From Bacteroidales bacterium (GTDB lineage Bacteria > Bacteroidota > Bacteroidia > Bacteroidales > P3): a DNA stretch of 64,000 nucleotides. Below the pieces are notes generated by a model. The model worked only from the letters and a program-made list of their open reading frames with translations. It did not search any database and was not told the origin of the DNA. The DNA is taken from assembly GCA_017934545.1 (NCBI GenBank), contig JAGBJI010000001.1, forward strand, positions 124,001-188,000, given 5' to 3'. Shown one piece after another: positions 57,238 through 63,370 of this stretch. Numbering within the stretch: position 1 is the stretch's first letter; the number at the start of each line of letters is the position of its first letter. A program made the position numbers and the translations under genes.

Positions 57238-58014
57238 TCACATTTGCAAAACATAAAAGCAAGAAGTTGTGAAATAATTCCTTATATAAGGCAGGTGGGA
57301 AATGATATTGTTTTGTTTGCGTGGCATAAGGCCAAATTTTTGTTTATAATGCGGATTGATAAACCATATGGTACGGTCCACACATCGCAATCCGACAAAT
57401 TTATACAACTTTTCAAACTTTTCAATTGACATTTTCGCTTCCCTAATACTTAACAATTCTTTTATACAATCATCATTCTCTCCGCTCAATCTTAATATTG
57501 CGGTATAGAATTGTAGTGGCAACAGATGAATAAAAGGAATCGTTGAAATAATACTCCTGCATATCTGCTGGTGTCCGCCAAAAGGCATCTGCCAAGGGGG
57601 AAATGCAATGAATATTATACCGTCAGATTCTAATAAAGTGATTGTTAAACGCATAAATTCCTGCTTCTTATCAGACGGTATATGTTCAATAACATCGTGA
57701 ATGATAATTATATCAAATTTATGTGCGGATTTGTAATCAAAAAAGTCGCAACATACCAAATCGCAATCAAAATTCAGGGCAGCAAAATATTCATTGCCTG
57801 CATTTATTTTCGTTTCACTCAAATCCATACCTGCAACGAAACATCCCTTTTCTGCAAACGGTAAAAGATTCCCGCCTTCTCCGCAACCGATTTCTAATAT
57901 TTTTAGATTGTTGTCTATTTTCTTGAATTTATTTATATACTTCAAGTAAAATTCGCTGCTTGTCAGTGCCAGTTCTTCAAAATACAGTCTTCTGTTATTA
58001 TGTCTTTCTTGCAT
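57238..58014 (-). CDS. Class I SAM-dependent methyltransferase
   Basis: A 258-residue methyltransferase. The SAM-binding motif is ILEIGCGEGGNLLPFAEKG, with an acidic residue in AGMDLSETK and the motif IIIIHDVIEHIPSD. The C-terminal 100 residues are hydrophobic and cysteine-containing, with FPPWQMPFGGHQQ. This pattern is close to glycan or ubiquinone/menaquinone-type methyltransferases, and the substrate cannot be told. The start at 58014 (MQERHNNRRLYFEELAL) is used; the frame extends 39 codons upstream into the next gene without conserved sequence. It lies 76 bases after the sigma-barrel gene on the same strand, inside the direct-repeat-bounded segment. Confidence 0.82.
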   Translation of the reverse strand: MQERHNNRRLYFEELALTSSEFYLKYINKFKKIDNNLKILEIGCGEGGNLLPFAEKGCFVAGMDLSETKINAGNEYFAALNFDCDLVCCDFFDYKSAHKFDIIIIHDVIEHIPSDKKQEFMRLTITLLESDGIIFIAFPPWQMPFGGHQQICRSIISTIPFIHLLPLQFYTAILRLSGENDDCIKELLSIREAKMSIEKFEKLYKFVGLRCVDRTIWFINPHYKQKFGLMPRKQNNIISHLPYIRNYFTTSCFYVLQM

Positions 58015-58090
58015 ATCTTTGTAGTTTAGCGTCTTGTTTCTTGTTATTAAGATGACCAAAACACAAAAAGACTGCGTTAGGTGCGGTAAT

Positions 58091-59713
58091 TTACAGCACA
58101 ATTCTGATTCCGAAACAAGAAGTCGGCACAAAAGGATTATCAGTTGTAAAAGTGCTGATGTTTTTGTCGTCCTTAATAAAGTATTGTGCTGATTGGGAGA
58201 AATATAAACTCATTTTACCGCTTAAATTATATGATAAAGATATGCCAAGTTGCAGTGACAATTTTTCTTTAGGCGACAATGTTCTGTTCTTTTCAAAAAC
58301 TATGTCGCCGTTAAGCGAATAGACTGTATGTAAGTTACTGTTTATCGGAACGTAATAAGTTATGCCGGCAGCGGAATGCAACTCAAATCTCTTGTTTTTA
58401 TAAATCCTTAAATTAGGTTGCAAACTAAGTCCGATAAATTGCAATTTTTGTTCACTGTTTATTGATGCCATCTGCCAGCCTGCTGAATATAGGCTCTTAA
58501 ATTCAGTATATTTTATGCCGAAATCTAATGAAAATCCGTTGTTTATATTTTTTGAAAACATGAGTCCGAACTCTACGGGGTTAAAATGTTTTGTTGCCGT
58601 TTGGATTTCATAAAAATTGTTGGCAATATTGGAATTGGCGATGTCTATTAAGAAATTAATTTCGTCAATTGAAGAAACCGCTGAAGGCTGATGTGATAAA
58701 AATTCAGCCAAATCCTGCCACGTTGAAATGCCTTGCGTAATACCCTCAATATTTTGCAATGAAATAACATTGTTAAGCGAACCAGTCGCAATCATATCAT
58801 TGTTGAATACAGCACTTTGTGAATAATAAAGGGCAAACTTCCATTTTGATATTTGTTTACTAAATTTAAGTTTTCCGAAATCTGAAACTATGTCGTCAGA
58901 ATAATATTCCGACGGATTAAACGGTGATATATATCGGGTGAAATCAATATTTTGCGGCTTAATATCAAATAATGATGGCTTAATATCAAATGTGTCAAAA
59001 TTAAAGTGGCGTTTCGCTCGACTAATGCCTGACTTTATTTCACTGATGTCTGACTTTAATATTTTCCTTTGCGGTTTTACTTTTGTCTGTTCAGTAATCT
59101 GCTTTTGAGCATCGTATTTCGGTAGATTTTTTAGCAAAGGAAGTGAAAGGAAAACTAATATCAGTGTTATTAGTTGCAATGCCCAATAATTTCTTACGGC
59201 ACTTTTCAACAATTTTCTCGCACGGTAATAATTTGAAGACGAAGTATGCGGTGCTATGTTGAGGATTTGCGAGATTTCCTTGTGGGATTTGTTTTCCAAG
59301 GCATAATAAGTAAAAATTGTCTTGTAACCTTCAGGCAACTGTTCTATCATTGAGTTAAGTTCTTGTGCGGAGATAGTTTCCTCTTGTTTGCTTTCAGTGT
59401 CAGACAGGTACTCTTCCAAACGCTCATCAATGGAAACGAATTTGTTTTCCATGAATTTGTTTTTGCGAAGATATAACAACGCCAAATTTTTCACTATACT
59501 GTTTGCCCAAGATTCAAATTTAGAGTTGTCTTTCAATGATTTGATGTTTGTAAATATGATTATAGAGGCATCCTGAACAATATCTTTTGCCGTATCTTCA
59601 TCTTTTACAAAAATTATTGCAGTGTTGAGTAATTTAGTATAACACCTTGAAATCAAAATGTCAAAAGCCTTATTGTTGCCTTGTTGAGCTTTGGTAACTA
59701 AATCTTGTAACAT
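58091..59713 (-). CDS. ECF sigma factor fused to a TM helix and a predicted outer-membrane beta-barrel
   Basis: One uninterrupted 540-residue frame. Residues 1-87 form sigma region 2 (AFDILISRCYTKLLNTAIIF ... FESWANSIVKNLALLYLRK). Residues about 113-177 form sigma region 4 with the helix-turn-helix SHKEISQILNIAPHTSSSNY. One TM helix (178-196, ALQLITLILVFLSLPLL) comes directly after, preceded by a basic stretch (RARKLLKSAVR) that places the sigma part inside. Residues 197-290 are a charged linker with a small internal repeat (FDIKPSLFDIKP). Residues about 291-540 alternate in the manner of beta-barrel strands (WKFALYYSQSAV, FGLMFSKNINNGFSLDFGIK, HSAAGITYYVPI, KLSLQLGISLSYNLS) and end GIRIVL. 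The start MLQDLVTKA at 59713 is preferred over upstream codons. No anti-sigma gene is adjacent. The sigma part is certain; the barrel is inferred from strand pattern alone. Confidence 0.85.
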   Translation of the reverse strand: MLQDLVTKAQQGNNKAFDILISRCYTKLLNTAIIFVKDEDTAKDIVQDASIIIFTNIKSLKDNSKFESWANSIVKNLALLYLRKNKFMENKFVSIDERLEEYLSDTESKQEETISAQELNSMIEQLPEGYKTIFTYYALENKSHKEISQILNIAPHTSSSNYYRARKLLKSAVRNYWALQLITLILVFLSLPLLKNLPKYDAQKQITEQTKVKPQRKILKSDISEIKSGISRAKRHFNFDTFDIKPSLFDIKPQNIDFTRYISPFNPSEYYSDDIVSDFGKLKFSKQISKWKFALYYSQSAVFNNDMIATGSLNNVISLQNIEGITQGISTWQDLAEFLSHQPSAVSSIDEINFLIDIANSNIANNFYEIQTATKHFNPVEFGLMFSKNINNGFSLDFGIKYTEFKSLYSAGWQMASINSEQKLQFIGLSLQPNLRIYKNKRFELHSAAGITYYVPINSNLHTVYSLNGDIVFEKNRTLSPKEKLSLQLGISLSYNLSGKMSLYFSQSAQYFIKDDKNISTFTTDNPFVPTSCFGIRIVL

Positions 59714-59757: not shown

Positions 59758-59788
59758 AAAAAGACTGCGTCAAAGACACAATCTTTTT
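59758..59788 (-). terminator. Terminator between the Fic gene and the sigma-barrel gene
   Basis: A 14-bp minus-strand stem AAAAAGATTGTGTC / GACGCAGTCTTTTT with two wobble pairs and a 3-base loop, then TAGTTTTTA. It separates the Fic transcript from the sigma-barrel gene. Confidence 0.72.
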
Positions 59789-59868: not shown

Positions 59869-61167
59869 TTATTCCTCTTGTTTTTTGATATATCCGCGTG
59901 TGACTTTATTGATAGCAAACTCCGTTAGATAGCCTTGTGCAACCAAATCCGTAAGGTCTTTTCTTGCTGTCATGGAAGAAACAGAAAATAAATCCTGTAT
60001 ATCTTTTACGGTGATGATTTCGTCAGGTTCTTCAGTCAAACGTTGCAAAATCATCGCCTGCCGCCTGTTTATATTTCCTTTCAACATAAACGCTTTTGCC
60101 GATTTCTTTTGTTGTTGCTTCCTTTGTATGTAATCGTTTAGTTGACGGAAAGATGTTTGCAGCGTTTTCAGATTATACATCACAAAATAGCCTATGTCAT
60201 TGCTGTCGCTCTCGCAATAACGGAACGTTTTCTCATAACTTTTCTTTGACTTGGCAATAACCCTTGATATTGACATATATTCCGTAAGCCAATACTTCTC
60301 TTTAAGCATATACCAATAGAACAAAGCACGTGCAGTTCTGCCGTTGCCGTCTGCAAACGGGTGCATAAACGCCAACATAAAGTGAATAATGATGCCTTTT
60401 ATGATAGGATGGATAAACGTTTGCGGATAGTTGTCGCTGTTAAACATTTCGCAAAGAGTATGAACAAACTCCGGGATTTCTTTATACGTCGGCGGGGTAT
60501 AAACAACTTTGTTTGCGGTTATGTCTGTCACGACTACATCGTCGTTAGTTCTAAATTGACCTGCATTTTCGGGATTATCCAATGTTTTTTCAGTCATAAG
60601 CCTGTGAACATTCAACAAACCCTCTTCGGTCAATGGGTCGTTGCGGTGCTGTGTTATATATTGAATAGTGTTGTAGTTGTTGACAATCATTTGTTGGGAC
60701 TTGTTCTGCGGAGATTTCTTTTTCCTTAACATTTCCTTTGCAACAATGCGTGTGGTTGAAGCTCCCTCTATCTGGCTGGAATAGATGGCTTCTTCCATCA
60801 AAGAACTGATAAGATAATTTTTCTTCTCCACCGTCTGCGTTTCGTTATCCGAAGCCCAAAAACTCTCAAACATTTTGTCAAATCCGTAACACAAACGCTG
60901 CATTTGCGAAGTGATGCAAAGTTTAACATTGTACTTGTCCCAAAAGGTTATTATGTTTTTCTGACGCTCCGCCTTGACACAAGTCCATAACATTTGCGGA
61001 GTATAACCATCGGGCAAAGGCTTATATTTTACCTTATCCCAATATTCATAATCCGCATTGATATTTTTCACAAGTGAATTGATGTCATCGGGTACTTGAC
61101 CTGTCAAAACCTTGTTGAAAAGTTTCTTGTCTATTTTCGGCGGTGATTCTATCATATAACAATCCAA
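59869..61167 (-). CDS. Fic-family AMP-transferase, class II, with C-terminal winged helix
   Basis: A 432-residue Fic protein. The catalytic motif HPFADGNGRTAR is complete at residues 269-280. An N-terminal inhibitory helix is present: SSQIEG at 130-135 fits [S/T]xxxE[G/N], which marks a self-inhibited class II enzyme. A DUF4172-like N-terminal region precedes it. The C-terminal 70 residues look like a winged helix (ITVKDIQDLFSVSSMTARKD), suggesting DNA binding or autoregulation. Fic enzymes usually add AMP to a Ser, Thr or Tyr of a target protein. A minus-strand TACTTTTG box (complement of 61182-61189) with TTG 19 bases further lies just upstream. Confidence 0.92.
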   Translation of the reverse strand: MDCYMIESPPKIDKKLFNKVLTGQVPDDINSLVKNINADYEYWDKVKYKPLPDGYTPQMLWTCVKAERQKNIITFWDKYNVKLCITSQMQRLCYGFDKMFESFWASDNETQTVEKKNYLISSLMEEAIYSSQIEGASTTRIVAKEMLRKKKSPQNKSQQMIVNNYNTIQYITQHRNDPLTEEGLLNVHRLMTEKTLDNPENAGQFRTNDDVVVTDITANKVVYTPPTYKEIPEFVHTLCEMFNSDNYPQTFIHPIIKGIIIHFMLAFMHPFADGNGRTARALFYWYMLKEKYWLTEYMSISRVIAKSKKSYEKTFRYCESDSNDIGYFVMYNLKTLQTSFRQLNDYIQRKQQQKKSAKAFMLKGNINRRQAMILQRLTEEPDEIITVKDIQDLFSVSSMTARKDLTDLVAQGYLTEFAINKVTRGYIKKQEE

Positions 61168-62149: not shown

Positions 62150-63370
62150 ATGGTAACACGGCAGATTATAGCTCAAGCGATTGACAATCAGAGAAAAGAA
62201 TTGGAAAACACTTCTTTGGGAATACAACGTGAGGTTTTTGACTTATTGCCTCAAGTTGATAATTTTGCAACTATAGTAACGGGATTGCGTAGGTGCGGAA
62301 AAAGTACATTGTTATTGCAAAAAATACGGCAAAATCCTGAAAACGTTTTGTTTTTGAACTTTGATGATATACGTTTAAGTGATTTTGATACCTCGGATTT
62401 CAGCCGTTTGCATTTAGAAATACAAGAAAGAGGTGTCAAGTCTATCTTTCTTGATGAAATTCAAGTAATTGATAAATGGGAAATATTTGTGCATCAACTG
62501 TTGCGTGAAAACTATAAAGTATTTATAACAGGCAGCAACGCAACTCTTTTAAGTGTTGAACTATCCACGCATTTGACAGGAAGAAACCTTAGTTTTGAGT
62601 TGTTTCCATTCTCTTATAATGAATTCTTGCGATTTAAAAATTTATCTGCTAATGAAGATACTGCAACGGAATATTTGTTAAAAGGCGGAATGCCAGAATA
62701 TTTGAAAACCAATCAAAGCCTTGTTCTTTCGCAGTTGGTAGATGATATTTTGTTGAAAGATATAGCCGTAAGGTATGGGGTAAAGGATGTTTCTTCTTTA
62801 AGGCAGATGGCGGTATATCTGCTCTCTAATGTAGGTAATTATCTTTCTGCTAATAAATTGCGGGGAATGTTTAATATCAAATCCGTTTCCTCTTTAACGG
62901 ATTATCTTTCCTTTATGGAGAATGTATATTTGTTTTATTTTGTACCTGTTTTTGATTATTCGTTGCGTGTTCAGCAACGCAACCCCCGTAAAATCTATTG
63001 CGTGGATTCCGGAATGGTCAGCGTTATATCGCAATCTTTTTCAACGGACTATGGTCATAGATTGGAGAATTTAGTGTTTATGCACTTAAGGCGTAAAACC
63101 AAGCGGATATATTATTATAAGGGTAGAGGAGAGTGTGATTTTGTTGCGGTTTTCAATCAAGGCAAAAAAACTTTGACGCAAGTGTGTGCGGAATTGACGG
63201 ATTTTAATTTAGATAGAGAAATAAACGGTATGTTTGAAGCCCTTGACGATTTATCCGAAACAAAAGGCACAATAGTAACAATCAATCAAACGGACGAATT
63301 TACAAAAGACAGCAAAACCATTAAAGTAGTACCATTATATAAATTCCTAACGGGTAGCACAGAATTATAA
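62150..63370 (+). CDS. AAA-type ATPase with DUF4143
   Basis: A 406-residue ATP-binding protein. Walker A is GLRRCGKST (45-53) and Walker B is SIFLDEIQ (98-105), followed by the sensor-like FITGSNATLL. The C-terminal half (about 215-390) is the DUF4143 domain with a restriction-endonuclease-like fold (GRGECDFVAVF and Glu/Asp pattern). The family is very common in Bacteroidota, often on mobile or variable DNA, and its role is not established. It is convergent with the nucleotidyltransferase gene; the 74 bases between them are short and hold no clear terminator. Its promoter carries an inverted repeat. Confidence 0.88.
   Translation: MVTRQIIAQAIDNQRKELENTSLGIQREVFDLLPQVDNFATIVTGLRRCGKSTLLLQKIRQNPENVLFLNFDDIRLSDFDTSDFSRLHLEIQERGVKSIFLDEIQVIDKWEIFVHQLLRENYKVFITGSNATLLSVELSTHLTGRNLSFELFPFSYNEFLRFKNLSANEDTATEYLLKGGMPEYLKTNQSLVLSQLVDDILLKDIAVRYGVKDVSSLRQMAVYLLSNVGNYLSANKLRGMFNIKSVSSLTDYLSFMENVYLFYFVPVFDYSLRVQQRNPRKIYCVDSGMVSVISQSFSTDYGHRLENLVFMHLRRKTKRIYYYKGRGECDFVAVFNQGKKTLTQVCAELTDFNLDREINGMFEALDDLSETKGTIVTINQTDEFTKDSKTIKVVPLYKFLTGSTEL

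Follow-up and report, generated by a model that had tools for sequence, protein, structure and literature searches.

A Dma3-type fusion of an ECF sigma factor to a predicted outer-membrane barrel, with no anti-sigma segment detected and with paired promoter-like motifs

Introduction

In classical cell-surface signalling of the FecA-FecR-FecI type, an outer-membrane signal reaches an ECF sigma factor by way of a TonB-dependent receptor and a distinct anti-sigma protein. A further arrangement is that of the Dma (dual membrane-spanning anti-sigma) proteins, whose two-gene Das/Dma organisation has been published (PMC13088901). As described in the accessible parts of the respective reports, Dma1/Das1, Dma2/Das2 and an unusual sigma/anti-sigma pair of P. 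vulgatus, likened there to the EcfO pair of B. fragilis (PMC9308784), each combine an ECF sigma factor with a transmembrane (TM) helix, a disordered tether and a C-terminal barrel encoded in two genes. Dma3 of B. thetaiotaomicron differs in having its own N-terminal sigma domain instead of an adjoining ECF21 gene, in a locus of two genes, bt_2778-2779 (Pardue et al., PMC13088901). The fusion of a sigma domain to a barrel is therefore already in print as Dma3, although very little is known about this branch according to the accessible part of that article (PMC13088901). The accessible part of a study of iron deprivation also lists BT2778, under the annotation of a sigma-70 family factor (PMC10434189).

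Single chains that unite a sigma domain with a membrane part include IutY (ECF243) of Pseudomonas putida and the ECF48, ECF52 and ECF53 fusions. In contrast to the protein studied here, these carry an anti-sigma-like extension, and the accessible part of a 2022 review, in which IutY is the sole fused ECF sigma factor of this activation kind characterised experimentally, mentions no outer-membrane barrel in the chain (PMC8999054).

Here we analysed a stretch of 64,000 nucleotides (the window; contig JAGBJI010000001.1 of the Bacteroidales bacterium assembly GCA_017934545.1, positions 124,001 to 188,000), which encodes a fusion of this kind. A signalling path from cell surface to promoter could hardly be shorter than a sigma domain covalently joined to an outer-membrane barrel. 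To the published architecture our analysis adds a clade of fused proteins set apart from the two-gene pairs, the apparent loss of the anti-sigma segment, and paired promoter motifs; neither the missing segment nor the promoter pair, nor any experiment on the window protein or on how Dma3 works, was found in the accessible parts of the open-licence literature searched on Dma-type systems.

Results

The preliminary description had proposed that sigma regions 2 and 4, one TM helix, a linker of roughly 95 residues and a strand-rich C-terminus lie in one continuous frame, with no anti-sigma gene adjoining. Pfam matches and a full-chain structure model confirmed this single-chain architecture over all 540 codons (Table 1). 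The two sigma regions were separated by a short linker, as in ECF sigma factors; the model contained a single TM helix and a disordered tether of about 90 residues. Sigma region 4 ended in a helix that ran on unbroken into the TM helix (residues 155-195), with moderate pLDDT values of 71-78 for sigma region 4 and the TM helix. In the preliminary description, the barrel call had depended on strand alternation; here a simple strand-alternation score was replaced by the structure model, which together with fold comparison (one structure search) gave 8 strands at the C-terminus; a soluble C-terminal domain was rejected on these grounds. Strands 1 and 2 were separated by an insertion of 70-80 residues, which in the model is probably extracellular loop 1. 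Across 30 fused proteins, the disordered tether measured 93-160 residues.

Table 1. Features of the fused gene and its flanks (window coordinates).
Feature	Position	Strand	Remarks
Fused ECF sigma, TM helix, linker and outer-membrane barrel gene (Dma3-type)	58091..59713	-	540 aa
Sigma70 region 2, residues 20-86	59456..59656	-	PF04542, E 6.7e-9
Sigma70 region 4, residues 117-169	59207..59365	-	PF08281, E 2.1e-13
Transmembrane helix, about residues 177-195	59129..59185	-	within predicted helix 155-195 (structure model)
Disordered linker, residues 197-287, presumably periplasmic	58853..59125	-	pLDDT <50
Predicted 8-strand outer-membrane barrel, residues 291-540	58094..58843	-	structure model and fold comparison
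P1, CGCAGTCTTTTT, proposed -35 of the fused gene's own promoter	59758..59769	-	no clear -10 match at usual spacing
P2, second CGCAGTCTTTTT, proposed -35 of the downstream methyltransferase promoter	58065..58076	-	
P2 proposed -10 element, ATCTTA	58048..58053	-	
Class I SAM-dependent methyltransferase, proposed target	57238..58014	-	258 aa, start MQERHNNRR

Consistently with the Dma family, the window protein thus has a single TM helix, a long disordered tether and a predicted C-terminal outer-membrane beta-barrel; like Dma3, it has an N-terminal sigma domain within the one chain and no adjoining sigma gene, and the fused gene and methyltransferase gene recall the two-gene dma3 locus. Unlike the FecA type, it includes its own small barrel of 8 strands, and no membrane anti-sigma gene lies beside it, the neighbours being a Fic-domain gene and the methyltransferase gene. 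By its architecture, we take the protein to be a Dma3-type member.

The Fic-domain protein, with a C-terminal HTH, is encoded on the strand of the fused gene and upstream of it (59869-61167), and an AAA_14/DUF4143 ATPase gene lies beyond it (62150-63370).

The preliminary description had named a soluble C-terminal domain, or a frameshift or stop between the sigma and barrel parts, as refuting the fusion, and neither was seen. The closest relative (L011), from a separate assembly, was 80% identical over the chain and encoded in an intact single frame. Between the two genes, dN/dS was 0.107 in the sigma part, 0.132 in the transmembrane part, 0.58 in the linker (residues 201-285) and 0.16 in the C-terminus; with low values at both ends and 0.58 between them, the sigma and barrel ends are kept while the tether drifts. 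The source genome is a 14-contig assembly with an estimated contamination of 8.1%, a setting in which an assembly or annotation artefact might have joined two genes. We rejected this explanation as practically negligible in view of the intact orthologue, of 43 distinct fused frames from many assemblies, and of dN/dS values well below 1 on either side of the junction. The same architecture, which had been proposed for a search of other genomes, recurs, and the earlier interpretation was supported, release of sigma by cleavage or a conformational change being its inferred step.

The loci were collected by a contig search with the window protein as query, using the best 80 of 111 confirmed loci, and ratios of fused to split loci are thus not frequencies. 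Among these best 80 of 111, a complete single fused frame was present at 25 loci and two more were cut by contig ends (L029 and L031, left out of the fused counts together with L111, which has no barrel match). L128, L136 and L155-L164 were added to the fused set; L120-L122, L150 and L151 were removed as repeats of counted loci, and L123, a two-gene locus, stood outside the fused count. L006 (the same gene as L002) and L091 (a near copy of L011) were left out of the 43 and of the trees, and were kept among the 33 fused proteins of the sigma-to-TM distance measure. A second fused gene in the source genome (L002:529-2043, minus strand; C11:78104-79609) belonged to another branch and had no upstream GCAGT motif. 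In the genus of L032, whose contig is titled Bacteroides ilei, 10 of 60 genomes had fused homologs (E<=1e-60). Order-wide, at least 2 of 198 genomes had a match at E<=1e-70, one of them spanning 207 residues only, among the matches listed (at most 7 candidates per genome), and the prevalence of fused genes is uncertain.

Two loci of this collection deserve separate mention. L020, on a contig titled Staphylococcus sp., holds a fused gene that falls inside the Bacteroidota clade and probably stems from a mislabelled assembly. L111:1006-2001 (minus strand) encodes a 331-residue ECF sigma factor whose C-terminal extension has a hydrophobic stretch.

At many other loci, which show the published Das/Dma organisation, a sigma gene was followed by a second gene, whose product of about 350-480 residues had an N-terminal segment, TM helix, linker and barrel of its own; the two genes overlapped by 4 bases in 22 of 54 pairs, and these loci were homologous to the window protein over both halves. 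Their partner proteins had 39-84 residues ahead of the TM helix (n = 54), a stretch bearing the anti-sigma segment and a motif around P..LW. The TM segment of the fused proteins, by contrast, began -3 to 6 residues after the sigma match ended (n = 33). A profile of the anti-sigma segment trained on 27 split partners recovered 27/27 held-out partners (E<0.01), and the profile of all 54 partners detected the segment in none of the 43 fused proteins, window included, at the same threshold (best E 0.23). When 7633 frames of the fused loci were scanned with the 54-partner profile, only two separate split Dma genes were recovered, both at L019, the next best match having E 1.4. We also rejected the idea that such a segment might be hidden at another place in the chain or in its flanks: a loose regular expression returned noise (52 matches at 43 loci) and the profile test was negative.

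A sigma tree was built from 31 fused, 54 split and 6 other sigma factor rows. All 31 fused rows lay on one side of a branch with support 100/99, recovered in 100% of 200 bootstrap trees, and four split rows diverged before the fused and the remaining split rows separated (98/91), so the fused clade is nested among split rows, with the caveat of long outgroup branches. The barrel tree, built from 43 fused and 54 split rows, again placed the fused rows on one side of a branch, with weak support (SH-aLRT 79). The simplest reading of these sequences would be one fusion event accompanied by loss of the anti-sigma segment.

Turning to the flanking DNA, we observed ACGCAGTCTTTTT on both sides of the window gene, upstream and just downstream, in the same orientation as the gene; GCAGTCTTTTT likewise flanked the fused gene on both sides in two further genomes (G001 and G002). 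Exact GCAGT[CA]TTT occurred within 150 nt upstream of 25/43 fused genes (opposite strand 0/43, shuffle mean 0.09), within 300 nt downstream of 17/43 (opposite strand 0/43, shuffle mean 0.17), and at both places in 14/43. The remaining 18 of the 43, including the second fused gene of the source genome, had no exact upstream match. Among 34 representatives below 75% identity, the counts were 21 upstream, 13 downstream, 11 at both places and 0 on the opposite strand, and the motif was found at 1/42 other ECF sigma genes. An RTCWW element lay 17-27 nt on from the motif in 31/42 instances (background 0.16), starting exactly 22 nt after the G of GCAGT in 22/42. ECF promoters are laid out as such -35-like and -10-like blocks at set spacing. 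From the sequence, GCAGT[CA]TTT with RTCWW would be an ECF-like promoter, which the fused sigma may read.

Other origins of the paired motif were also considered: it might represent the arms of a terminator, repeats that flank the gene, or binding sites for a different regulator. By eye, the P1 copy is part of a hairpin-like stretch that follows the Fic gene; it is able to pair with the preceding AAAAAGATTGTGTC and could belong to a terminator; the hairpin seems, again by eye only, to be absent in L011 and L092. Such origins are nevertheless improbable, given that the motif is strand-specific, usually sits 40-60 nt upstream with a -10-like element at fixed spacing, is conserved at fused proteins only 19-27% identical to that of the window, and occurs at just 1/42 other ECF genes. 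GCAGTATTT was also present upstream of 10/54 two-gene sigma genes (counted from rows). Allowing one mismatch, GCAGTATTT was less clean at the two-gene relatives (16/54 vs 6/54 on the opposite strand).

Genome-wide, the two-block pattern GCAGTMTTTN{10,16}ATCWTA had exactly two matches each in G084 and G123, one before the fused gene and one between the fused gene and the methyltransferase gene; these genomes are not independent, since their fused genes are nearly identical. The source genome had one match, before the methyltransferase; G001 had one at the fused gene and one elsewhere, and G002 one elsewhere only. No match to the pattern was obtained at the upstream sites of the source genome and G001 or at either site of G002; the reversed control matched once, in G123. 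GCAGTCTTTTT alone had 9 matches in the source genome vs 3 for the reversed control, two of them flanking the window gene; in G002 it was not enriched genome-wide (4 matches vs 6). A wide regulon was not found: of the seven other GCAGTCTTTTT sites, the survey covered four (L171, L177, L183 and L189), none with a convincing target, the other three being on C7 (two) and C10 (one).

The genes downstream of the fused gene varied by branch of the fused clade. A methyltransferase with the same N-terminal sequence as that of the window followed the fused gene in L092, L158, L159 and L161-L164 (Pfam run for L092 and L159 only), and in L011 a class I methyltransferase came after a radical-SAM gene and a GFO/IDH oxidoreductase gene. 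Lipoprotein and/or radical-SAM(/SPASM) genes of the TIGR04134/TIGR04133 kind followed in L016, L022 and L024 (by family search) and in L026, L030, L034 and L041 (by sequence clustering), with a promoter-like motif in between in some of these loci; a lipoprotein and a radical-SAM protein were also encoded downstream in L128 and L155. Directly downstream in L033 was a secreted serpin (L033:7002-8276; PF00079, E 7.4e-71), with a similar protein in L066 (6852-8135), a neighbour that perhaps points to a link with protease stress. A DUF4377 gene lay downstream in L028, and L038 encoded a similar protein.

At the two-gene locus L123, a lipoprotein gene (L123:3323-4051) comes after the sigma/Dma pair, and its product may be NigD-like. 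In B. thetaiotaomicron, nigD1 is among the Dma1-controlled genes given in the accessible part of the Dma report (PMC13088901).

Discussion

We propose that the window protein, as a Dma3-type sigma factor, carries out surface signalling in a single chain, which would be silenced by its tether and whose sigma part, once released, would activate its own and the neighbouring gene; we put the probability of this reading at about 0.7. Since its last helix continues into the TM helix, the sigma domain would be fixed to the cytoplasmic side of the inner membrane, with the disordered tether crossing the periplasm and the 8-strand barrel acting as a sensor in the outer membrane. In the two-gene relatives, the short N-terminal anti-sigma segment of the Dma protein holds the separate sigma factor; as this segment is absent from the fused proteins, we take tethering itself to keep the sigma inactive. 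A change in the barrel, or failure of its assembly, would lead to cleavage in or near the TM helix and thereby free the sigma domain. An M50 (RseP-type) peptidase is present in the source genome and is weak evidence for such cleavage, since it was found in 14/14 control genomes. The freed sigma would then read promoters of the GCAGT[CA]TTT-N13-RTCWW type at its own gene, giving positive feedback, and at the next gene, here the SAM methyltransferase.

The sigma domain might instead be active while tethered, movement of the barrel or tether reorienting region 4 and RNA polymerase being recruited at the membrane with no cleavage. Mechanical transfer of this kind could pass along the single predicted helix that joins region 4 to the TM segment, and no cleavage site was identified in the fused protein. 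Region 4 lies, however, only a few residues away from the membrane and would need to contact both the -35 DNA and the RNA polymerase flap from that position, and fused IutY is freed by Prc and RseP according to the accessible part of the review, its release by RIP being a precedent for freeing a fused sigma (PMC8999054). We consider activity in the tethered state unlikely and prefer release by cleavage.

What signal the chain would respond to is a separate matter. Barrel and tether might report outer-membrane assembly itself, the chain being cut when barrel assembly fails under BAM or envelope stress, with no ligand; this is compatible with the preferred reading and differs in the signal only. 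In the accessible part of the report on Phocaeicola vulgatus, the two-gene relative is toxin-induced, the same treatment induces many genes responsive to a BamA inhibitor, and envelope stress is the likely signal according to the authors (PMC9308784). Moreover, the final residue of the barrel was W, L or F in 39/43 fused proteins. Against assembly sensing, the insertion between strands 1 and 2 was variable (30-94 residues in 30 fused proteins), suggesting an exposed, changing surface that assembly sensing would not need, and we regard a ligand-free assembly signal as somewhat unlikely.

More broadly, Dma3-type fusions may form a signalling class of their own, in which a sigma factor free of any anti-sigma would be silenced solely by tethering between inner and outer membrane and would serve a tiny private regulon (its own gene and one neighbouring target, be it a methyltransferase, a radical-SAM/lipoprotein pair, a serpin or others) through a recognisable promoter; we advance this generalisation tentatively, at slightly less than an even chance. 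Loss of the segment sharpens the questions of whether tethering suffices to silence a sigma factor and of what frees it. The paired motifs offer a ready reporter and the conserved neighbours are candidate targets of the Dma3 branch, and the mechanism is directly testable because it combines an anti-sigma-free tether with a small, recognisable regulon.

In the source genome, the search found no full-length two-gene Dma partner and returned four weaker partial matches (E 3e-6 to 1.4e-4). One of these, L152 (C12:1770-2219; E 3e-6), is a weak match to part of the fused/split alignment; the frame, of 283 residues, adjoins the ECF sigma gene L007, with which it probably forms another sigma/anti-sigma pair. 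A broader claim, that the source genome holds no Dma-type anti-sigma segment, was dropped, since such segments occur in other pairs of this genome, and for the same reason inhibition of the fused sigma in trans is conceivable. Two further sigma/anti-sigma pairs, L208:784-1617 (minus strand, C10) and L209:1483-2313 (plus strand, C1), encode second proteins with a Dma-like N-terminal segment (E 1.2e-4 and only 0.05, respectively), a hydrophobic segment, a linker and a C-terminal CHU_C domain, which is a type IX secretion signal domain. A membrane anti-sigma factor bearing such a T9SS signal could serve to sense the secretion system. Proteins related to that of L209 over nearly the full length were present in 14 of 40 relatives, 7 of these adjoining an ECF sigma match.
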